The notes below the pieces were generated by a model, which was not told the DNA's origin, did no database searches, and saw only the letters and a program-made list of their open reading frames with translations. Below, piece after piece: positions 39,136 through 48,238 of a stretch of 64,000 nucleotides of DNA (positions within the stretch are counted from its first letter, which is position 1; each line of letters starts with the position of its first letter). The stretch comes from a virus, in IMG/VR virus record IMGVR_UViG_3300044922_000409, positions 35,738 to 99,737 of that record; one strand, 5' to 3'. A program made the translations under genes and the position numbers.

Positions 39136-39573
39136 CTATTGTGTTTTATTAATTTTAAGAAATCCAAAATCTTGATCAGATACGTCAATTCCTTCGGCTG
39201 CAGCAGCATTGTAACAGATATCTCTATACCAACGACCTACAATTTCATCTTCGGGATCACCTTCGTAACCGTATCCATCTTGTTTTAATTTTTCAACCCA
39301 AAACTCATTCCAGTCAAGTTCAAAAAAACCATTTCTAACATTTTGTTTATTAACCTTAAATCCGATCACATCGACCCACGGTTCTTTCTTTAATGTAGCA
39401 ATTTCTTTTGGAGTAAGAGGCGTTTGAACAACTTCTTCTTTAACTTTAGGTTGTCTTACTTTACGTTTTTTAATAGCTTGTTGTTTAGATAATTGTGCTT
39501 CTTTTAATTGCTGTTGCAATGCCAACTCATCATTACGATCACCGAATAATTTTTTTATAATTTTTTCAAACAT
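39136..39573 (-). CDS. Hypothetical protein, 145 residues
   Basis: Not recognised. Starts M-F-E-K-I-I-K-K-L-F-G, then a charged Gln/Lys-rich coiled coil (about 15-45) and a globular C-terminal part (W-V-D-V-I-G-F-K-V-N, W-F-W-type aromatic pattern, E-G-D-P-E-D-E-I-V-G-R-W-Y). I chose the ATG at 39573, which overlaps the queE stop (TAATG), over an upstream in-frame TTG. Conserved unknown next to queE in related phages, from memory. Confidence 0.65.
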   Translation of the reverse strand: MFEKIIKKLFGDRNDELALQQQLKEAQLSKQQAIKKRKVRQPKVKEEVVQTPLTPKEIATLKKEPWVDVIGFKVNKQNVRNGFFELDWNEFWVEKLKQDGYGYEGDPEDEIVGRWYRDICYNAAAAEGIDVSDQDFGFLKINKTQ

Positions 39574-40412
39574 TATGTTCCCCAACCGTTGCCAAATAGT
39601 GGAAGATGTAGCCTATCACTATATCGCAATCCATATTTTAATGCAAGTTCTGCTACTGCTTTGTTGTTTAAATGATAAACATCTTCAACACCGCCAACTG
39701 GCATTAAATAAACATCACCTCTAAAACCAGCTGCTCTATACCATTCTAATGCTTCTAGAGCTTCAATAACATCTTCTTTAGTTGCAACTACAAATTTTAA
39801 AAATGAACCATAACTTGATAGTTGGTACTCAGTTACAATTTCAGGACAAATTGCCTTATCTTTTAGTTCTCCGCTTACACTTAGCTTAGGACTAATTGAA
39901 AATGTTACTTGATATCGTCTTTTTCCAAATATGTAATCTTCTAATTCTTCTGATAATACTTGTGTGCCGTTAGTTTCAAACGTAATGTTTTTTAAGTCTT
40001 CTAACTTTGGATGATTTAACAATTCTGGATATATCTTTTGCCATCCAGGTAACAATGGTTCACCTCCTGTAATTACTAAGTGTACATTACCCCATCTTTT
40101 ATTAGGTAGCAGATTAATCATTTTATCTGCAATTTCATCGATAGTCATTATAGGACTTAACTGTTTAAATTTTGGATGCCAGCTTGCATAACTGTCACAC
40201 CCGGTAGTTACTAATGGTAGTTCATCATATGAATGATATTGTATACCATTATTAGCAATTGCATCTGCTTGTACACTTAGTTCACCTTTAGGCATACCAA
40301 ACCCTCTACAAGAAAAATTGCACCCAAACGTTCTAAGGAACACACTTGGCACTCCCATAAATCTACCCTCACCTTGTAATGAGTAAAATATTTCTGATAC
40401 TTTAAGTGTCAT
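39573..40412 (-). CDS. queE: 7-carboxy-7-deazaguanine synthase-like radical SAM enzyme
   Basis: QueE converts 6-carboxytetrahydropterin to 7-carboxy-7-deazaguanine. 279 residues. Substrate-binding Q13-G-E-G16 and the SAM-binding G116-G-E-P119 are clear. The iron-sulfur motif is unusual. Canonical QueE has C-x3-C-x2-C-D; here C31-N-F-S-C35 is followed by 36 residues (R-G-F-G-M-P-K-G-E-L and so on) before C72-D-S-Y-A-S-W, which matches the usual third Cys plus the Asp and aromatic residues after it. So an insert appears to sit inside the cluster loop. FolE is upstream with one gene between, and all three overlap or nearly touch. Confident as QueE family; exact activity inferred. Confidence 0.87.
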   Translation of the reverse strand: MTLKVSEIFYSLQGEGRFMGVPSVFLRTFGCNFSCRGFGMPKGELSVQADAIANNGIQYHSYDELPLVTTGCDSYASWHPKFKQLSPIMTIDEIADKMINLLPNKRWGNVHLVITGGEPLLPGWQKIYPELLNHPKLEDLKNITFETNGTQVLSEELEDYIFGKRRYQVTFSISPKLSVSGELKDKAICPEIVTEYQLSSYGSFLKFVVATKEDVIEALEALEWYRAAGFRGDVYLMPVGGVEDVYHLNNKAVAELALKYGLRYSDRLHLPLFGNGWGT

Positions 40413-40852
40413 TTGTTATCCTGTGTTAATTGTTTACGAAACTCGTAGCAATCTTTAACTGCAGACGTTAATGCGTCTGCATAATTTAATGTTTGTTGTT
40501 CAGACATTATAGTCGATTGTTGATATTTAAGATAACCATCAAACCACAAATTCCATGTAATTTTACAACGATGATGAAATCCATTAAGAAAACTTAATGT
40601 AGTATATGCAACCGTACTTAAAAATACATTTTTGATTTTATAAGTTTCTGCAACATCGAATGGTCTATCCCAATATGCAGTTTTTTGTGTAGTAAAGGTA
40701 GTTACTGTAACATTAAATTCATCAGCTTCTACCATAAACTCGATATCATCATCTTCGTTACCGCATTTGCATTTAATTGCATACATTTTACTATCACCCC
40801 AGTCATTTGTTTGCATAATGCCTACTGCTGGAATTTGTGGTGTTAATTTCAT
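40409..40852 (-). CDS. Hypothetical protein, 147 residues, between folE and queE
   Basis: Not recognised. Carries a C-K-C-G motif near residue 28, with other Cys (R-C-K-I-T-W; D-C-Y-E-F) far away, and a beta-rich centre. AAGGAG lies ahead of the ATG. It overlaps queE by four bases and sits eight bases after folE, so it is co-expressed with the two deazaguanine genes. It has no PTPS/QueD motif. Could be an accessory protein of the pathway or an unrelated small gene. Confidence 0.65.
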   Translation of the reverse strand: MKLTPQIPAVGIMQTNDWGDSKMYAIKCKCGNEDDDIEFMVEADEFNVTVTTFTTQKTAYWDRPFDVAETYKIKNVFLSTVAYTTLSFLNGFHHRCKITWNLWFDGYLKYQQSTIMSEQQTLNYADALTSAVKDCYEFRKQLTQDNK

Positions 40853-40860
40853 AAATCTCC

Positions 40861-41532
40861 TTATTTGTTTACAATACTCATAAATTCTGCACGAGTAGTT
40901 GGATCGTTTTTAAATGCACCACCTAACTTACTAGTAATAGTAGTGCTACCTGTGTCTTCTACACCTCTTGCGGCAACACAATAATGTTTTGCATCGATAA
41001 CTACTGCAATATTATCAGTATCTAAGATGTATTCTAATGCGTGGAATACTTGTTCTGTTAATCTTTCTTGTACTTGTGGACGTTTTGAAAAGTATTCAAC
41101 TACGCGGTTAATTTTGCTTAGACCAAGTACAACGTCGTTTGGAATATAACCAACTGTTGCAAATCCATCAATTACTACAAAATGATGTTCGCAATTACTT
41201 TGCACGTTAATGTTGCGTTCAATTAACATTTCATTGTACCCCATTTTATTTTGTATAGTAGTACACTTTGGAAATGCGTCATAATCAAGGCCCCAAAATA
41301 TTTCGTTAACGAACATTTTTGCAACTCGTTTAGGAGTGTCTGCTAAACTGTCATCTAATAAGTCTAACCCTAATGTTACCATAATATCATAAAACTTATC
41401 CTGAATGATATTAATTTTTTCTGATGTTGTTAATATTTTTTCAGTCACTGGTGTTTCAACACCTAAACTTACTAAATGATTGTGTATTGCTAAACCTAAT
41501 GCTGGATCTGTTTTTAATTTATTAAAGCTCAT
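40861..41532 (-). CDS. folE: GTP cyclohydrolase I
   Basis: Opens GTP to 7,8-dihydroneopterin triphosphate, the first step to folate and to 7-deazaguanine. 223 residues, normal for the family (E. coli 222). Zinc ligands are C114 and H117 in C-E-H-H and C185 in A-K-H-Y-C-V-A-A-R-G-V. S-T-T-I-T-S (196-201) and the G-Y-I-P segment also match. With queE downstream, the pathway use is probably 7-deazaguanine for DNA, with ThyX folate supply as the alternative. Its own consensus promoter is just upstream. Confidence 0.95.
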   Translation of the reverse strand: MSFNKLKTDPALGLAIHNHLVSLGVETPVTEKILTTSEKINIIQDKFYDIMVTLGLDLLDDSLADTPKRVAKMFVNEIFWGLDYDAFPKCTTIQNKMGYNEMLIERNINVQSNCEHHFVVIDGFATVGYIPNDVVLGLSKINRVVEYFSKRPQVQERLTEQVFHALEYILDTDNIAVVIDAKHYCVAARGVEDTGSTTITSKLGGAFKNDPTTRAEFMSIVNK

Positions 41533-41558
41533 TTTTAATTCCTTGTTTGTAAGTGTAC

Positions 41559-41587
41559 ATTATACAGTAGTATTTAGGTTTTGTCAA
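41559..41587 (-). promoter_or_regulatory. Sigma70-type promoter for folE
   Basis: Minus strand TTGACA (41587-41582), 17-base spacer, TATAAT (41564-41559), then AAGGA 5-10 bases before the folE ATG at 41532. Both boxes match consensus. The -35 box lies inside the end of the upstream 55-residue gene. Confidence 0.88.
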
Positions 41588-41741
41588 TTGTTTTAAACAT
41601 TGCTAATTCATCTTGTAAGTATTCTACGTAATCTTGAAGTCCGGACAACATACGAGGATCACCGGTACCGGCATGTTTGTCAATATCATTTTTTACATTT
41701 TTAATTTTTTCTTGTAGTTCTTCTTTAGTTAAATCTGTCAT
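41574..41741 (-). CDS. Small hypothetical protein, 55 residues
   Basis: Short frame starting M-T-D-L-T-K-E-E-L-Q-E-K-I-K and ending L-A-M-F-K-T-I-D-K-T. Helical and strongly charged, with a G-T-G-D-P-R turn in the middle, suggesting a helical hairpin. A strong GGAGGG ribosome site precedes the ATG. It overlaps the upstream 110-residue gene by 17 bases, and the folE promoter begins within its last codons. Function unknown. Confidence 0.7.
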   Translation of the reverse strand: MTDLTKEELQEKIKNVKNDIDKHAGTGDPRMLSGLQDYVEYLQDELAMFKTIDKT

Positions 41742-42057
41742 TGTTTCCCTCCGATCTTGCTATTTCTAAAAACATTTTATATTTTTCATATGCTGCGTTA
41801 ACAGTTGGATTAGAATCTCTAACATACATATCTTCATAATGTTTTTTATTCCATTCTTCACATTTTTCAGCTTTGTCGATCAACTTTATAAAATCTTTCT
41901 CGTTTAATTTAACAGTTAAAGACCTCGTAACGTTTGCTCGTTCGCTTGGAATTGATGCCTTTGACCAATCTATCGAATAAGTGTTATCTGCAGAATAATA
42001 TTGTTCAATGTCTATGCTTCGTATACCGTATTTCTGTGTTATTTCGGATAGTTCCAT
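41725..42057 (-). CDS. Hypothetical protein, 110 residues
   Basis: Not recognised. Starts M-E-L-S-E-I-T-Q-K-Y-G, then a beta-type middle (R-S-L-T-V-K-L-N) and a long charged helix. I chose the ATG at 42057, which overlaps the stop of the upstream phosphoribosyltransferase (TAATG), rather than a TTG eight codons earlier. Translationally coupled to its neighbours. Confidence 0.65.
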   Translation of the reverse strand: MELSEITQKYGIRSIDIEQYYSADNTYSIDWSKASIPSERANVTRSLTVKLNEKDFIKLIDKAEKCEEWNKKHYEDMYVRDSNPTVNAAYEKYKMFLEIARSEGNNDRFN

Positions 42058-42587
42058 TACTTTTTCCAGTAGTTTTCCCAAGGAAAGTCAATCCATATAG
42101 GATCTTCTCGTTTGTCAAATTCTTCTGCGCAATAATCAACATGCGCGTTACTTGCAGCATTATCAAATATTACAGCAAATCTTACATTCCTGTGCCACAC
42201 ATCATGATCCCATCGTATATCATTTGGTAAACACAATGATTTCCAATCTTCTTTAATCCAATCAAGTGTTGCACCTGAGTCATTAATATCATCAACAATT
42301 AGAATGTTTTTAGCTAGACCAACACTTGCTAATTCATCATCAGTGACTCCAAATGCATCACACGCCATCCATGCATTGTGTTCATTATCATCCGGATGAT
42401 CACGTAAGCTAACGTGTAATGTTAACATTTTAACACCTAGGTATTGGCTTAGTAAGTTCGCGGGGATAAGTCCCCCGCGTGTAATGCCTACAATATAATC
42501 TGGTTTCCACTCGTCTTTTTGTATTTGACGTGCAATTTCCAATGCTGCACCTTCTAATTGTTTCCAACTGTATTTTACTACTTTCAT
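42057..42587 (-). CDS. Type I phosphoribosyltransferase
   Basis: 176-residue purine-type phosphoribosyltransferase. The PRPP-binding loop is I-L-I-V-D-D-I-N-D-S-G-A-T (95-107), and I-V-G-I-T-R-G-G-L-I-P (32-42) is the usual PP-binding loop of xanthine/hypoxanthine enzymes. It would join a purine base to PRPP. In a phage with folE and queE nearby it may serve nucleotide salvage or a modified-base branch, but the substrate cannot be told from sequence. ATG overlaps the stop of the upstream gene by four bases. Confidence 0.85.
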   Translation of the reverse strand: MKVVKYSWKQLEGAALEIARQIQKDEWKPDYIVGITRGGLIPANLLSQYLGVKMLTLHVSLRDHPDDNEHNAWMACDAFGVTDDELASVGLAKNILIVDDINDSGATLDWIKEDWKSLCLPNDIRWDHDVWHRNVRFAVIFDNAASNAHVDYCAEEFDKREDPIWIDFPWENYWKK

Positions 42588-43036
42588 TCGTCGTCCTTTG
42601 GAAGTATGCTGTCTTCGTAACAGATTGTGTAAATTGATTTTAAATTCTCATATGCTTTGTCTAGGCCAGGGTAATCATTGCATAGTTTTCTGAATGCATT
42701 CCATTCAGGAAAGTTATCTTCAAATGGTTTACCATATGCAGCCCAACTAGAAGTAGACCAAGTATTTCCTCCTATTCCGTTATATGCGTAATAGTTACTT
42801 GTTAAATTAGTAGAATTAAATCCGGTTATAGTATTATGGCCATACATGCCATTACTTCCAGTGATAGTAATTGTATCACTCGCTGCTGTTCCACACATAA
42901 CATTTGACGCTGTATATGCTGATAATGTACTGGCATCAAACGCAGGTATACTGTAACGTGTTGGATCCCCATCCATAGTAAATGTAATAGTATCAGATCC
43001 GGTTGATGTAGTAATAGTATCATTTAAAGTTGTCAT
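42584..43036 (-). CDS. Hypothetical Ser/Thr-rich protein, 150 residues
   Basis: Two-part protein. The first 95 residues are Thr/Ser/Gly/Asn-rich and beta-like (T-T-S-T-G-S-D-T-I-T-F). The last 50 (W-N-A-F-R-K-L-C-N-D-Y-P-G-L-D-K-A-Y-E-N) are helical and acidic. That C-terminal type is common in small proteins of T4-like aquatic phages. The second ATG (43036), with AAGG seven bases ahead, is chosen over one five codons earlier. Overlaps the glycosyltransferase gene end by 17 bases. Function unknown. Confidence 0.62.
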   Translation of the reverse strand: MTTLNDTITTSTGSDTITFTMDGDPTRYSIPAFDASTLSAYTASNVMCGTAASDTITITGSNGMYGHNTITGFNSTNLTSNYYAYNGIGGNTWSTSSWAAYGKPFEDNFPEWNAFRKLCNDYPGLDKAYENLKSIYTICYEDSILPKDDE

Positions 43037-44120
43037 ATAATACCCTTGCATTAAAAAATTCTTTTGTTAAGTAATCTGCTTGTTTTTTAATATGCAACGC
43101 ATATTCGTCGTATTTTTCTATATAATTAATAATTTGATTACATAAATCAAAACTGTGTGCCTCGTAATCTGCAAAACATTCAGTCCACTGTGATGGATAT
43201 TTAAAATGATACATATACATTTCTTTATAGCTAAGTCTGTTAGGCACCATTGGTATAGCTCCAAGTAATGCACCTTCATAACAACTAATGCCTAGTGTTT
43301 CTTGTAAATTAGCACTAAACACAATCTTTGCTTCACTTAACAATTTATGATATTCGTCTTTAGTAAGTGTTTCTTCTTGGCATATAACAAAGTCATATTG
43401 TGGTAATTGATCTTTTAATGCTTTAAAAATATCAACTTGTTTTTCTGATGCAATTCTGTGCGGAAACACGATTAAATCACGTTTCTCTGCATTTAAATAT
43501 GGTGTAAGTTCGTCGGCTAAATATTCCATTGGCCATCCAGTGCGAACAATTTTACCATCGTCGTACCTTTCATTCCAATCTTCGTCAAACCACGGATTTT
43601 CACTAATCATGCCGTTGTTTAATAGTTGCTCCATAAACATTCTCACATGAAATTCTGTTGCAAAATAATTATGATCAAATGATGCATAATAACTTTTTTC
43701 AGCAAGTTTAACCCAACCGTGATCAATCCCACCTAAAAAATCATGTTTGTCATAACTGCCAGCATGCCACAGTCCGTGAAATGTCCAATTTAATCTCATC
43801 AAATCTTTAATATATTTTAAATTTATAATTGCTGGATTCCAAGCATCTGTAAATAAGAAATGATCATTAGTTGTTGATTTATCATAATTTTTTAAAAATC
43901 CAACAAGTTGCGATCCCTTCCATACGTTAGTGTCTATAAAGTTTAAGAATGCACCGGGTGTTACATCTGATGATTGTTGATCACCAGTAATTTGAATAAT
44001 GTTAAAGTTATCGCCAAGTTGTTTTTTAAGTTGTTTAGGTATATATTCAAACCATTGACTAGTATAGCGAGTGTCAAGTGGTTCAAGTGCAAAAATCCAA
44101 ATAGTAGGTTTTATTTTCAA
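43020..44120 (-). CDS. Glycosyltransferase, GT-B fold, TTG start
   Basis: 366-residue GT-B-type glycosyltransferase. The C-terminal half shows the nucleotide-sugar site: D-L-I-V-F-P-H-R (about 240) followed by L-L-S-E-A-K-I-V-F-S-A-N-L-Q-E-T-L-G-I-S-C-Y-E-G-A-L-L-G split over residues 268-290, with the E-x7-E spacing of GT4-like enzymes. Translation would begin at TTG, 6 bases after a strong AGGAG. It lies between the deazaguanine genes (DpdA and QueD-like upstream, FolE and QueE downstream), so it may glycosylate DNA, as T4 glucosyltransferases do, or a virion or host target. Substrate unknown. Confidence 0.75.
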   Translation of the reverse strand: MKIKPTIWIFALEPLDTRYTSQWFEYIPKQLKKQLGDNFNIIQITGDQQSSDVTPGAFLNFIDTNVWKGSQLVGFLKNYDKSTTNDHFLFTDAWNPAIINLKYIKDLMRLNWTFHGLWHAGSYDKHDFLGGIDHGWVKLAEKSYYASFDHNYFATEFHVRMFMEQLLNNGMISENPWFDEDWNERYDDGKIVRTGWPMEYLADELTPYLNAEKRDLIVFPHRIASEKQVDIFKALKDQLPQYDFVICQEETLTKDEYHKLLSEAKIVFSANLQETLGISCYEGALLGAIPMVPNRLSYKEMYMYHFKYPSQWTECFADYEAHSFDLCNQIINYIEKYDEYALHIKKQADYLTKEFFNARVLYDNFK

Positions 44121-44136
44121 AATAAACTCCTGTTAT

Positions 44137-44158
44137 GAAAGCTCCAAAAGGAGCTTTC
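44137..44158 (-). other. Hairpin between the 84-residue gene and the glycosyltransferase
   Basis: GAAAGCTCC, loop of four, GGAGCTTTC: perfect 9-bp stem. On the minus strand it ends 8 bases before the AGGAG of the glycosyltransferase. No T run follows, so it is not a classic terminator; it may be a processing or translation-control element. Confidence 0.65.
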
Positions 44159-44175
44159 GTGGTTAATATTAAATG

Positions 44176-44430
44176 TTATGATTTTTTATAATTGTTAGTT
44201 TTTGGTCTAACATTATTGGGCCATGGTTTATTGCCCTGGTATGGTTTTCTAGGACGCTTACTTGCCATATACGCACCATACGATTTAGTATCTTTGCGAT
44301 ACAAATCTGCTGGATCAAATTTACGTAATTCAATTCTACAAAAGTCACGAAATGCTTCAAGATCTTCAAAGATTTTAACAACATCTGGACGACTTTCAAA
44401 GTATGAGAATGTTTTGTAATTTTTAGCCAT
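44176..44430 (-). CDS. Small basic hypothetical protein, 84 residues
   Basis: Not assigned. Starts M-A-K-N-Y-K-T-F-S-Y-F-E-S-R-P-D-V, followed by a helical stretch and a very basic, Pro-rich tail (A-S-K-R-P-R-K-P-Y-Q-G-N-K-P). The tail suggests nucleic-acid binding (inference). A perfect T4 late promoter octamer lies about 100 bases upstream, with a strong hairpin in the leader. Another overlapping frame (44169-44510) was rejected. Probably a late, possibly DNA-associated, protein. Confidence 0.65.
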   Translation of the reverse strand: MAKNYKTFSYFESRPDVVKIFEDLEAFRDFCRIELRKFDPADLYRKDTKSYGAYMASKRPRKPYQGNKPWPNNVRPKTNNYKKS

Positions 44431-44465
44431 TTTATTTTCTTCCGTTTTATAATAAAGTTATGGTA

Positions 44466-44496
44466 GTATATACTAACAACCTCTGTTAGTGTATAC
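44466..44496 (-). other. Leader hairpin upstream of the 84-residue gene
   Basis: Arms GTATATACTAAC and GTTAGTGTATAC around a 7-base loop: 11 of 12 pairs are Watson-Crick. It lies between the late promoter motif (44529-44536) and the ATG at 44430, so it would be in the mRNA leader. It may stabilise the message or regulate translation; no U run follows. Confidence 0.7.
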
Positions 44497-44528
44497 TGTA
44501 AATTGTACATCTGGTTTAATACTAGGTT

Positions 44529-44536
44529 TATTTATA
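44529..44536 (-). promoter_or_regulatory. T4-type late promoter
   Basis: TATAAATA on the minus strand, an exact match to the T4 late promoter element, in the 130-base gap between the QueD-like gene and the 84-residue gene. No other frame occupies this gap. It would drive the 84-residue gene and possibly the glycosyltransferase late in infection. Confidence 0.7.
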
Positions 44537-44560
44537 CATGAGTTTTACATGTGATTAGTT

Positions 44561-44920
44561 TTAGTTGTATTCGGTATATGATCCATTTTCACCATCTTCA
44601 GAAACTTCAATCCACACTTCTTTATGTGGGTATTCATCTTTTATGTTCCAGTATAAATCATTGCTTATCATTTCACAACTTTTATTATCTAATGATAATG
44701 TTGAAGTAATGTACAATGATTCTAACCATCTTTTAAATTGTATAAACTCTACATCTCTGTCATCATGTGTAACTTCAAGCCATACTTTAAAATGAAATAT
44801 GTGTCTATGCGGGTGTCCTAAAAACGATACATCTGCTAAGTTAGGATCAGTTAGTGCTGCAGGATAACAATGGATTCCTTCTTTCTTAAAAGTGACCCAG
44901 ATCATTTGTTTATTAATCAT
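44561..44920 (-). CDS. T-fold protein, putative 6-carboxytetrahydropterin synthase (QueD)-like
   Basis: 119 residues, the usual size of QueD (about 120). The order of features fits the PTPS/QueD fold: G-I-H-C-Y-P-A-A near residues 15-22 (compare F-x-A-A-H), then H-P-H-R-H-I-F-H-F-K-V-W-L-E-V (36-50, compare H-G-H-x-F-x-V-x-L-E-I), V-E-F-I-Q-F-K (compare D-F-x-E-L-K), N-K-S-C-E-M-I (compare N-P-T-S-E-V) and V-S-E-D-G-E-N-G (compare V-x-E-T). The zinc His set is plausible; the catalytic Cys of QueD is not in its usual place. FolE and QueE, the steps before and after, are in the same region. Similarity is my reading of motifs, not an alignment. Confidence 0.55.
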   Translation of the reverse strand: MINKQMIWVTFKKEGIHCYPAALTDPNLADVSFLGHPHRHIFHFKVWLEVTHDDRDVEFIQFKRWLESLYITSTLSLDNKSCEMISNDLYWNIKDEYPHKEVWIEVSEDGENGSYTEYN

Positions 44921-45441
44921 TTAAGTACCTTGTCGTTATTATAGTTAAACCAGTTAGTGAACTTCTTGTGATCTTGTAGATCGTGCAAGCTATGTGTCCA
45001 CACGCCGGGGTTAGTTGCGTTAAATGTAGTGTCGTCAATCTTAACCATTGTATTATAACTCCAATCCTTAATATTTGCAACCGGAATTCTAATTTGTGGT
45101 ATAAAATTATTATACTTGCATAAATTAGTATTTGTGTTAAAATCGATTACTGCTGTAAATGGAATATCTAATGAACACAGTTTTCCTGTTTTTAAAAAGT
45201 GCGCAATAGTGTTATTCCAGTTGAGCCATGCACCTGGTGTATCTGGATTAAAACTATGGTTTGCACCAAAGAAGATATGTGTAATATCCTCTGTAGTATC
45301 TAACCGGTAATGGATTGCTTCTGTAGTTTGAATACCAACAATAAATAATGTTTTTAAACCATATGCTGGAGTATGCTCTACTTCATCTCCAACAAAAAAT
45401 TTAGCAGTGTTAGTAGTTGTGTTGTTGTATGTTCTATTCAT
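44917..45441 (-). CDS. Unknown protein, 174 residues, between dpdA-like and queD-like genes
   Basis: Not recognised. Begins with an Asn/Thr-rich tail, then F-V-G-D-E-V-E-H-T-P-A-Y-G-L-K-T-L-F-I-V-G (about 16-36). It contains an internal repeat: F-N-P-D-T-P-G-A-W (64-72) and F-N-A-T-N-P-G-V-W (about 139-147), each followed by a segment rich in Trp/His/Phe. It overlaps the genes on both sides (eight and four bases), so it is translated with the DpdA-like and T-fold proteins. This argues for a role in the same modification pathway, perhaps as a partner of the transglycosylase. Confidence 0.7.
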   Translation of the reverse strand: MNRTYNNTTTNTAKFFVGDEVEHTPAYGLKTLFIVGIQTTEAIHYRLDTTEDITHIFFGANHSFNPDTPGAWLNWNNTIAHFLKTGKLCSLDIPFTAVIDFNTNTNLCKYNNFIPQIRIPVANIKDWSYNTMVKIDDTTFNATNPGVWTHSLHDLQDHKKFTNWFNYNNDKVLK

Positions 45442-47065
45442 CTTTAATGCTATCTTCTAAGTTAGATAAGTTAAGTTCTTCATCAACGAAATCATCGTCA
45501 TCGTCATCAAATGACCATAATTCATTAACCTTTGTATCAGGATTGATTGTTTTTTTACCAGTATTCCCGCGTGTACCAGGTATTGCTATCCACAGTTTGT
45601 TATATGTTTTAATAATTGCCAATGCGTCAACTAAATTATCAACTGCAAAGATTGAATCAATAACATCTCTAACATATACGTGTTTAAATTTTTCATCCAC
45701 TAACATATTAGGCAAAATACCGTTATCGTATGCTCGATTTGCCTGTTGTACAGCATCCAAGTGACTCCATACGTTGTGCCCCATTAATATAGCATAACTA
45801 AAACTATCCCAACTAGTTCTACCTACTTTATTAACTTTATTAGCATCACCCATTGTAATCCAATATTTAGGATCATTTAAGTATAATGGATCTGAAAATA
45901 ATAATGCATGATCAATGTTATCATTATCAACTTCTGTCCAGTTAGGAACACCTTGACTGTATATACATATATCTTTAATTGGTACTTGATCGATTAACGG
46001 ACTTGGATTAAACACTTTAAAGATCTTATCTTGAATAACTGCATCTTTAAATAGTCGAGTATCAGTTGAATATTTTTTATCATCAGCACTTGGCACCATT
46101 CGATACACCCATTTAGATCTATCTTCAACTTCGGTAGTAATATAGACTTGACCATTTGCAGTAGCTAAAAATGGACTAGCACAATCGTAACTAATAGTAA
46201 AGTTTGGATTATGATATTTACGTACTGCCCGTTGAATGTCTGTTAATAAACATGCCCATTCTAATTTACTTGTTCCTAAAAAATGCATCCAATCTTGATG
46301 CCCTTGTTCTAGTAATCCGTCAAATCGCAATGTAACTAATCGTCTAAGAACTAGGTCAGCATCACACATGTTTTGTCCACCCATTGCCCAACCATTAAAC
46401 GCCTTGTCACCGTAGATAGTAGGATCGCAATATTTCTTCATACGTTGGTACCAATCTTCTGCATCAGTGTGTGTTTCGCCTTGCAATACGTTTAAGAATT
46501 TGCATTTACCAGAGCGATTATTAACAAAATAATCATTATTAATATAAGTACCTTGTACTGCATCCATGTAATCATTAATACCTGTTGCTGCTTGCCCTGC
46601 AGGGCTACGTGCAACCCACGCAGGAATATCAAGACACATACCGTAATCCATTAACTCGTCCATCCATCGTAATACTTGTTCACGTTTCTTTTGTGCTTTA
46701 GGACAAGCAGGATCTTTCCAATCAGCCGGCCACACACCTTTACCAATCTGGAAACCACCTGAGTCACCTAGTACCCAACTTGTAGTTCTGTCTCTGTTAC
46801 GAAACATGTCTTCGCTTTCGTCAAACTTATCTAAATCTAAGTTTGCGTGTCCTGCTGAATATAAGCACCATTTGTAGTAGAACTCTCCTTTTTCAGGTTC
46901 TAAATAGTTAAGTCCTTCTACTCCAGCTTTAAATGATGCAGGAATACGTGAAGGTTCAACATAATTACCGTAACGTTGTTTTCCAATAAACGTCGAGTAA
47001 AAACCCGACGTTGCTGGTAGGAAAACAGCATAATCATTCTGCGTTGCTGTTAAGTTCCGATTCAT
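45434..47065 (-). CDS. dpdA: DpdA-like DNA 7-deazaguanine transglycosylase (TGT superfamily)
   Basis: 543 residues. TGT enzymes swap guanine for a 7-deazaguanine; DpdA does so in DNA. Visible motifs: G100-D-S-G-G-F-Q106 (catalytic Asp strand), C-L-D-I-P-A-W (144-150), N-V-L-Q-G-E (192-197), G-W-A-M-G-G-Q (225-231), H-F-L-G-T (261-265) and S-Y-D294-C-A-S-P. The last fits the nucleophile motif D-C of bacterial TGT (F-D-C-V-x-P-T-R), but the tRNA-binding T-R-N-A-R part is missing. No PUA domain or the four-ligand zinc site of tRNA TGT is seen. The C-terminus is very acidic (a run of Asp). The length and missing tRNA features favour DNA as the target. Confidence 0.78.
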   Translation of the reverse strand: MNRNLTATQNDYAVFLPATSGFYSTFIGKQRYGNYVEPSRIPASFKAGVEGLNYLEPEKGEFYYKWCLYSAGHANLDLDKFDESEDMFRNRDRTTSWVLGDSGGFQIGKGVWPADWKDPACPKAQKKREQVLRWMDELMDYGMCLDIPAWVARSPAGQAATGINDYMDAVQGTYINNDYFVNNRSGKCKFLNVLQGETHTDAEDWYQRMKKYCDPTIYGDKAFNGWAMGGQNMCDADLVLRRLVTLRFDGLLEQGHQDWMHFLGTSKLEWACLLTDIQRAVRKYHNPNFTISYDCASPFLATANGQVYITTEVEDRSKWVYRMVPSADDKKYSTDTRLFKDAVIQDKIFKVFNPSPLIDQVPIKDICIYSQGVPNWTEVDNDNIDHALLFSDPLYLNDPKYWITMGDANKVNKVGRTSWDSFSYAILMGHNVWSHLDAVQQANRAYDNGILPNMLVDEKFKHVYVRDVIDSIFAVDNLVDALAIIKTYNKLWIAIPGTRGNTGKKTINPDTKVNELWSFDDDDDDFVDEELNLSNLEDSIKDE

Positions 47066-47450
47066 CTTCTTCCTGTTTTGGGGTTAATAAATTACTAAGT
47101 AAAGTTTTAGTAACTTGTAAATTAGTTTCTACATCTGTAATTCTATTAGCTGCGCTTACAAACTGCGGACTTGCAGTAACATGTCCGACTATATGCGAAT
47201 TAAGAGTGTAATTTGTATATGGGTTTCGATTATACTCTTCAAGTGTGGTTAATCTTGATTCAAGTCCTTGCACACGTTGTTTTATGTATTCGTAATCAAC
47301 ATAAAACTGTTCAAATGGTCCTGGCATAGCATAAGATGGCATATCTAATTGCGCTAACATTGTTACTTTATCAAGAGATGACTTAACACTTTCATTTTGA
47401 TTAACATACACAACGTCTAATAATTTTAATGCTTTTCTAATATCTATCAT
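47034..47450 (-). CDS. Hypothetical coiled-coil protein, 138 residues
   Basis: Not recognised. Helical, with heptad-like stretches at about 55-75 (Y-I-K-Q-R-V-Q-G-L-E-S-R-L-T-T-L) and 100-125 (I-T-D-V-E-T-N-L-Q-V-T-K-T-L-L), ending in an acidic tail. The ATG overlaps the clamp stop by one base and its end overlaps dpdA by 32 bases, so it is expressed with the clamp and dpdA. Confidence 0.65.
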   Translation of the reverse strand: MIDIRKALKLLDVVYVNQNESVKSSLDKVTMLAQLDMPSYAMPGPFEQFYVDYEYIKQRVQGLESRLTTLEEYNRNPYTNYTLNSHIVGHVTASPQFVSAANRITDVETNLQVTKTLLSNLLTPKQEEDESELNSNAE

Positions 47451-48187
47451 TATTTTGTGTGTGCAGGTAATGTATAAGTGTATACTGCATTTCCGCTATC
47501 AACGATAATTTGTAACGAACCTTGATCAGATACTCGCATCTTAATATCACCGTTTAAATTTAAAATGCTTAGTACATGTGTAATTGGCCAAGACCATGTA
47601 TTTTTTAAATTAGCAGTGATTCCTGGATGAAATACGTATGATCCTGCATGTGTGCTAGCATCACCAAATCTAAATACTAAGTCATTATTAACAGTAGCTA
47701 ATTGAAATACAGTTTCTTCAGTATGAGCAGCAGCCTGATGTTTTAATCGTTGTATACTTACAATAGATGGACTAAATTCAATTTCGTATGTAATTTCTAC
47801 TTTAAGTTTAGGTCTTCTAACTTTGGCATTAATGATTTCTTGATTCATAAATCGATAATCATTTTCATAATCGCCAGTTTCATTAGAAAAGTGAAGTCCG
47901 GTTGGTAATTGTTCATCATCTCTAGTTTCGTAAACAACTTTAATATTTGCATCTTTTTTATATTCTGGACATTTAAGATGAAGATCTAATTTATTTAAGT
48001 TAGGCATTCCAAAAATACTTTCGCCTAATTCAGGAACAGGAGCATGTGTAGTTGCTAATAGCATTACTGATCTATCTTCAGCAATGGATTCGATAATAGC
48101 ATTGTTTGAGGTCGCAGTTACTTTAACTAATGGTAAAATGCTTAATGTATGTGTATGTGCTACTAAATCTTGTAAAAATGTTTTCAT
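47450..48187 (-). CDS. 45: DNA polymerase sliding clamp, gp45-like
   Basis: Ring-shaped processivity factor for the phage polymerase; in T4 it also activates late transcription with gp33 and gp55. 245 residues from the chosen ATG (T4 gp45 has 228). The beta-strand and loop pattern of gp45 can be followed: I-L-P-L-V-K-V-T-A-T-S-N-N-A-I-I-E-S-I, L-N-K-L-D-L-H-L-K-C-P, and a C-terminal V-L-S-I-L-N-L-N-G-D-I-K-M-R-V strand. It adjoins the DNA polymerase. The ATG at 48187 is chosen over an upstream TTG because AGGAG sits eight bases ahead and the TTG is part of the -35 box of the promoter. Confidence 0.82.
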   Translation of the reverse strand: MKTFLQDLVAHTHTLSILPLVKVTATSNNAIIESIAEDRSVMLLATTHAPVPELGESIFGMPNLNKLDLHLKCPEYKKDANIKVVYETRDDEQLPTGLHFSNETGDYENDYRFMNQEIINAKVRRPKLKVEITYEIEFSPSIVSIQRLKHQAAAHTEETVFQLATVNNDLVFRFGDASTHAGSYVFHPGITANLKNTWSWPITHVLSILNLNGDIKMRVSDQGSLQIIVDSGNAVYTYTLPAHTK

Positions 48188-48209
48188 ATAATGTCTCCTA
48201 GTTGTGTAT

Positions 48210-48238
48210 ATTATATTATAGTTGTGTTGTTTTGTCAA
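48210..48238 (-). promoter_or_regulatory. Sigma70-type promoter for the sliding clamp
   Basis: Minus strand TTGACA (48238-48233), 17-base spacer, TATAAT (48215-48210); a second overlapping TATAAT lies at 48220-48215 with a too-short spacer. The expected start near 48203 leaves a leader of about 16 bases with AGGAG. It lies just after the DNA polymerase stop. Confidence 0.88.

Follow-up and report, generated by a model that had tools for sequence, protein, structure and literature searches.

The stretch of DNA analyzed here (the window, 64,000 nucleotides) covers bases 35,738–99,737 of the 99,737-base IMG/VR virus record IMGVR_UViG_3300044922_000409, which is probably a fragment. It carries a cassette that includes genes for FolE, a T-fold protein with the fold of QueD, the radical SAM enzyme QueE, and a predicted DpdA-like DNA-guanine transglycosylase. 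The four open reading frames (ORFs) were recovered at the same coordinates as in an earlier note on this DNA, all on the minus strand (Table 1). A glycosyltransferase (GT), a phosphoribosyltransferase (PRT), and an orphan protein designated p174 are encoded in the same region. With a probability of about 0.6, the cassette belongs to a phage 7-deazaguanine DNA-modification pathway that would do without QueC, by-passing preQ0 through a decarboxylation carried out by the T-fold protein.

The synthesis genes were identified with family profiles. FolE was matched by Pfam at 6e-60 and by an NCBIfam equivalog above its cut-off, and QueE by PHROG 2076 (phrog_2076, “QueE-like radical SAM”) at 3e-56. 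The QueE cluster cysteines C31, C35, and C72 were invariant in 50 of 50 relatives; C35 and C72 are separated by a long insert that is also seen in the QueE of Vibrio phage nt-1. Both identities are certain on this sequence evidence. A canonical QueD was not found in the 99,737-base record; in both 372-kb relatives, whose DpdA is 79–80% identical to that of the window, it is located about 30 kb from the DpdA gene. QueF (PF14489) gave only below-cut-off matches outside Cellulophaga phage phi3ST:2, those that could be placed sitting on FolE genes, and a QueF-like role was rejected on these grounds. Conservation of the cassette was counted in IMG/VR contigs with enough flanking sequence. Starting from the DpdA gene, p174 and the T-fold gene were found downstream in 23/23 contigs, the GT in 21/22, the PRT in 13/16, and FolE in 11/14, and QueE belongs to this cassette as well; counted from the T-fold gene, DpdA lay upstream in 50/52, the GT downstream in 45/55, and FolE in 35/38. 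The profile matches and this conservation support the 7-deazaguanine DNA-modification cluster proposed in the earlier note.

The DpdA-like protein had no match above chance in Pfam, PHROGs, or NCBIfam; 23 diverse relatives had no Pfam match either, the tRNA-guanine transglycosylase (TGT) profile PF01702 run over nine records returned nothing for it, and PDB sequence-profile searches with the family returned nothing. An AlphaFold model was built from 24 sequences with a predicted local distance difference test score (pLDDT) of 86.7, and all 50 of its top PDB matches were TGTs (Foldseek, E of 3.8e-7). Its matches in a viral structure library were the Motura TGT, a 464-aa protein of nt-1 with a length identical to that of the nt-1 DpdA2, and a 259-aa protein of Cellulophaga phage phiST. 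Residues D101-S-G-G, D146, G225, and D294 are invariant (DSGG, D146, and D294 across 24 diverse members); both TGT active-site aspartates are kept, and D294 belongs to the motif that aligns with the nucleophile of TGT. At their key positions, the motifs DSGGFQ, LDIP, LQG, GWAMGG, HFLGT, and SYDCASP show little or no variation, and they can be aligned with those of DpdA2-type proteins. Every hidden Markov model (HMM) route gave nothing, and the identity of the protein as a transglycosylase was decided by structure alone. The HMM check suggested in the earlier note thus returned no non-DpdA family and no confirmation either, and its DpdA-like transglycosylase is upheld by fold and motifs.

The relation to named DpdA types is distant. 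BLASTP against the nt-1 DpdA2 gave 26% identity over 191 aa with an E of 0.002 in a single comparison, and hhalign against nt-1 alone gave a P of 0.03, a run with nt-1 among both inputs being set aside; the transglycosylases of phages ACP17, X1, and BUCT-ZZ01 are 27–30% identical to the nt-1 DpdA2 over their length. Against DpdA1 (9g type), hhalign with the Queuovirinae protein of JG054 aligned 27 columns at a P of 0.02, and no homology was found. On these comparisons with DpdA1 and DpdA2, the protein is treated here as a TGT-type subfamily apart from the former and barely related to the latter. It is probably a DNA-guanine transglycosylase in the broad sense, exchange in DNA being predicted from the modeled fold.

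QueC (PF06508) was not found in the whole 99,737-base record, in the 372-, 372-, and 356-kb relatives, or in any IMG/VR cassette locus examined, which extends to the full record and these relatives the absence reported earlier for the window. The comparison set consisted of 25 named phages that carry deazaguanine genes; the T-fold protein is present in 12 of these and absent from 13. Full-length QueC was present in 0/12 phages with the T-fold protein versus 11/13 without it (Fisher p of 2e-5), and when every above-cut-off match was counted, including the partial ones of D479 and YB07, in 1/12 versus 12/13 (p of 3e-5); the phages in the set are related, and these p values overstate their independence. 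PTPS/QueD (PF01242), by comparison, was present in 11/12 phages with the T-fold protein, the match in D479 being weak, and in 13/13 without it. The exchange is seen within phage groups: among DpdA2 phages, nt-1 has QueC and ACP17, BUCT-ZZ01, and X1 have the T-fold protein instead, and among Cellulophaga phages, phi3ST:2 has QueC and QueF and phiST has the T-fold protein. The T-fold protein accompanies three transglycosylase types (the window type, DpdA2, and the phiST type). Judged by gene content, it takes the place of QueC and not that of QueD.

The model of the T-fold protein (pLDDT of 91) had its best matches in Escherichia coli QueD (template modeling score of 0.73), and its C-terminal half matches phage QueD by profile; a PDB profile search with the family alignment gave weak or chance matches only. 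The family keeps H17, H38, and H40, at the place of the zinc ligands, as a putative zinc site, along with E83 and E108. Phage QueDs have an invariant Cys and an invariant Asp-His pair (C28, D71, and H72 in A4); in the alignment, the catalytic Cys before the HxH/HxY motif and the Asp-His pair are both absent from the T-fold family. ACP17, Rhizobium phage RHph_I1_18, BUCT-ZZ01, and phiST each have a separate QueD gene in the region of the T-fold gene. The reading of this protein as QueD was rejected on the loss of the catalytic residues and the co-occurrence of a separate QueD, and with it the QueD step on the route to 7-carboxy-7-deazaguanine (CDG), which the earlier note had assigned to the protein. 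The family, with at least 598 candidate stretches in one scan, is listed as unknown in PHROGs and is hypothetical in every named record among the matches listed.

Fusions and reduced loci were also seen. In Chryseobacterium phage MA9V-3 (locus L165, 5431–6312), the T-fold domain is the C-terminal part of a larger ORF in which the preceding domain resembles, by eye, an HNH/homing-type endonuclease; in Vibrio phage Bakedbeans (L162, 5221–6372), it is C-terminal to about 260 residues of unassigned nature; and in Vibrio phage D479, a neighbour of the T-fold gene is annotated as a homing endonuclease. Faecalibacterium phage Roos (L166, 6025–7893) has a reduced locus consisting of the T-fold gene, a TGT-like protein (phrog_887), and a YhhQ-type transporter (PF02592), and perhaps uses imported or host-made deazaguanine.

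Given its occurrence alongside QueD and QueE, its exclusion of QueC, and a fold of the purine/pterin-binding kind, the T-fold protein most plausibly acts on CDG. It is most likely, on this comparative evidence, a CDG decarboxylase of the DpdL type, and the product in DNA would be 2'-deoxy-7-deazaguanine (dDG) rather than the carboxy base. Both dDG and the carboxy nucleoside 2'-deoxy-7-carboxy-7-deazaguanine (dCDG) were reportedly described by Cui et al. in 2023, who are said to have found dDG in the DNA of phiST and ascribed it to an enzyme named DpdL. The T-fold protein may be this DpdL, a link that serves as a lead only; no literature naming DpdL in the decarboxylase sense was found in the library searched. 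The gene content of phiST resembles that of the present system in FolE, QueD, a radical-SAM protein, a homologous T-fold protein (phrog_17812), a TGT-fold protein, and the lack of QueC, and differs in a smaller transglycosylase of another type (259 aa) and in having no GT and no p174.

In the proposed pathway, FolE would convert GTP to dihydroneopterin triphosphate (H2NTP), a canonical QueD, encoded at another place in the genome, would form 6-carboxy-tetrahydropterin (CPH4), and QueE would form CDG. In place of QueC, the T-fold protein would decarboxylate CDG to free 7-deazaguanine, and DpdA would insert this base into the replicated phage DNA in exchange for guanine. The PRT, matched by PF00156 at 2.9e-16 (the XGPRT models remaining below their own cut-off) and thus confirmed as the phosphoribosyltransferase noted earlier in the region, probably salvages the guanine released by DpdA; its gene adjoins QueE in BUCT-ZZ01. 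More speculatively, the GT and perhaps p174 could add a further group to the base or to the DNA that contains it. The exchange of guanine would protect the phage DNA from host restriction, an effect demonstrated in other phages with 7-deazaguanines (PMC6884629).

Several points weigh against this pathway. In the 372-kb relatives, QueD lies in the direction that runs past the end of the record, and the phage's own QueD is thus unseen. In the Roos genome, which encodes the T-fold protein, neither PTPS/QueD nor QueC was matched. D479 (OZ195776.1, 153872–154066) has a partial QueC-family match (E of 6.4e-9, 69 positions, in a 278-aa frame) and is the sole exception to the exclusion of QueC among the 12 named T-fold phages. 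The relatedness of the compared phages and the status of the DpdL link as a lead count on the same side, as does the GT, which would have no obvious acceptor on plain 7-deazaguanine.

This last point bears on a different reading, in which a new hypermodified 7-deazaguanine would be the joint product of the T-fold protein, the GT, and p174. Glycosylation would follow decarboxylation or replace it, could take place at C7 or via the carboxylate, for example, and could act on base already in DNA or on base yet to be inserted. Members of the GT family match Glycos_transf_1 (5.5e-6) and Glyco_trans_1_4 (2.5e-6), and the catalytic residues of the GT-B fold are kept (R222, E226, K227, and E282 invariant, E274 nearly so); a PDB profile search with the GT alignment gave weak or chance matches only. 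By family match and donor-site residues, the protein is a GT-B, GT4-like glycosyltransferase. It is rare, occurring in 19 of 50,697 phage records, 15 of which also have the T-fold protein, and in 0/13 deazaguanine phages without the T-fold protein. The record-level hypergeometric values for such co-occurrences are inflated by near-identical genomes, and those at lineage level depend on how many phage lineages are assumed. The GT gene adjoins the T-fold gene, the DpdA gene, or both in PA5oct, ACP17, X1, Phosso, BUCT-ZZ01, and dozens of contigs. The specific co-occurrence with the T-fold protein implies that the GT, and perhaps p174, functionally belong with the pathway; it strengthens the earlier suggestion that the GT could extend the chemistry. 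A second, partial GT copy (86 positions, in a 94-aa frame) lies at 149671–149928 of the 356-kb relative (G003), about 2 kb from the full copy.

As a GT acceptor, a 5-hydroxymethyl pyrimidine was also considered; no thymidylate-synthase or hydroxymethylase family gene to supply one was found in genomes G000–G003, a search that did not extend to other 5-hydroxymethyl-pyrimidine routes, and this leans toward the deazaguanine as the glycosylated base. Set against this, 7-deazaguanine has no known acceptor hydroxyl, and the GT may instead target a virion protein or the host. The GT of T-fold phages accompanies a transglycosylase of the window type or DpdA2; the other T-fold phages, mostly of the phiST type, lack it, so that it is dispensable for the core route. 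The p174 family is conserved (FFxGxEVEHTP...KIDD...NPGVW) and has no library match; among the 50,697 records, only those of the PA5oct group and ACP17 contain it, which are a part of the phages with both T-fold protein and GT. A glycosylated, hypermodified base is the best of the alternatives and tentative at most. The broader form of the idea, in which a glycosylated QueC-less 7-deazaguanine with p174 as the partner of the GT is installed by a TGT subfamily other than DpdA1 and DpdA2 in a widespread group of large phages, including the PA5oct group, is held just as tentatively.

Decarboxylation by the T-fold protein was also judged more likely than the two outcomes considered in the earlier note, a carboxy base or completion by the host. 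If dCDG were the final base, the T-fold protein would be a second QueD, a chaperone, or a regulator. The presence of QueE without QueC would fit, and the same outcome was proposed for phage Bipper, also without QueC, by Hutinet et al. in 2019 (PMC6884629). A route that stops at CDG requires no additional enzyme, however, and the T-fold family is strongly conserved, has an invariant putative metal and acid site, and lies in deazaguanine clusters in which QueD is not replaced; this outcome is judged somewhat less probable than glycosylation. Completion by the host, with a host QueC turning phage CDG into preQ0 for insertion by DpdA, ranks lower still and is improbable: many bacterial hosts have the full queuosine pathway and other phages are thought to draw on host intermediates (PMC6884629), but QueC is consistently missing from precisely those phages that have the T-fold protein, the hosts of which differ widely, and a host-reliant route would make FolE, QueD, and QueE superfluous too. 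Action of the transglycosylase on tRNA, with the cluster boosting host queuosine modification, would agree with the TGT fold and is very improbable, as the family is far from true TGTs (no PF01702 match), its genomic setting is that of phage DpdA2 and phiST-type proteins, and a phage without QueC and QueF makes no preQ0 or preQ1 for tRNA.

The QueC-less cassette was compared with other systems. The Pseudomonas jumbo phages of the PA5oct group (PA5oct, MIJ3, Paride, and others) share the DpdA (36.6% identity), GT (45%), and T-fold protein (52%), along with QueE, FolE, QueD, and p174, and lack QueC; they differ from the window in that the GT gene lies directly between the DpdA and T-fold genes, with FolE and QueD about 55 kb and p174 about 28 kb away. 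No report of base modification in PA5oct or Paride was found in the literature searched. Acidovorax phage ACP17, Xanthomonas phage X1, and Synechococcus phage BUCT-ZZ01 have the T-fold protein and GT beside the transglycosylase, FolE, QueE, a separate QueD, and no full QueC, and differ in that their transglycosylase is of the DpdA2 type. The DpdA2 system of nt-1, the DNA of which has been shown to carry 7-deazaguanines (Hutinet et al. 2019, PMC6884629), shares FolE, the insert-bearing type of QueE, and a TGT-fold DpdA with the same motifs; unlike the window, it has QueC, no T-fold protein, and no GT, and its DpdA2 is only marginally similar.

The remaining genes of the region are included in Table 1. 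The 262-aa protein lies ahead of DpdA in every locus counted (55/55 and 50/50); the homologue in PA5oct, annotated as structural, is recorded as seen by mass spectrometry, and the 262-aa protein is probably a mere neighbour outside the chemistry. In the left part of the record (L001, 2481–6911), very long Thr/Ser/Gly-rich low-complexity ORFs (one of 1476 aa and its neighbours) are probably tail-fibre or adhesin genes.

Table 1. Genes of the cassette and its flank, with positions in the window.
Feature	Position	Strand	Basis
QueE, 7-carboxy-7-deazaguanine synthase, radical SAM, 279 aa	39573..40412	-	PHROG 2076, three cysteines
147-aa protein, between FolE and QueE	40409..40852	-	Kept in close relatives
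FolE, GTP cyclohydrolase I, 223 aa	40861..41532	-	Pfam, NCBIfam
Xanthine/guanine-type phosphoribosyltransferase (PRT), 176 aa	42057..42587	-	PF00156
155-aa protein, between GT and PRT	42584..43051	-	Present in part of relatives
GT-B (GT4-like) glycosyltransferase, 366 aa	43020..44120	-	Family matches, conserved residues
84-aa small conserved cassette protein	44176..44430	-	Homologues in 100 loci
T-fold (QueD-fold) protein, 119 aa, phrog_17812; putative 7-carboxy-7-deazaguanine decarboxylase (DpdL-type)	44561..44920	-	Structure model, residues, co-occurrence
p174, 174-aa orphan family, between DpdA and T-fold gene	44917..45441	-	Conserved family without library match
DpdA-like DNA-guanine transglycosylase (predicted), 543 aa, divergent TGT-fold subfamily	45434..47065	-	AlphaFold/Foldseek, invariant motifs
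262-aa protein, upstream of DpdA	47450..48238	-	Relatives' gene order

For Bipper, a route without QueC had already been anticipated in 2019 (PMC6884629). The replacement of QueC by the T-fold protein, a separate transglycosylase family, and a dedicated glycosyltransferase were not found reported in the literature searched. What looks new is the module around the T-fold protein, with a GT that travels with the T-fold protein and DpdA and, in part of the phages, the orphan p174. The question shifts from whether QueC is missing to the role of the protein that replaces it. If the T-fold protein is a CDG decarboxylase, dDG would be predictable in many phages, and should the linked GT modify this base too, the product would amount to a new class of glycosylated purines in DNA.

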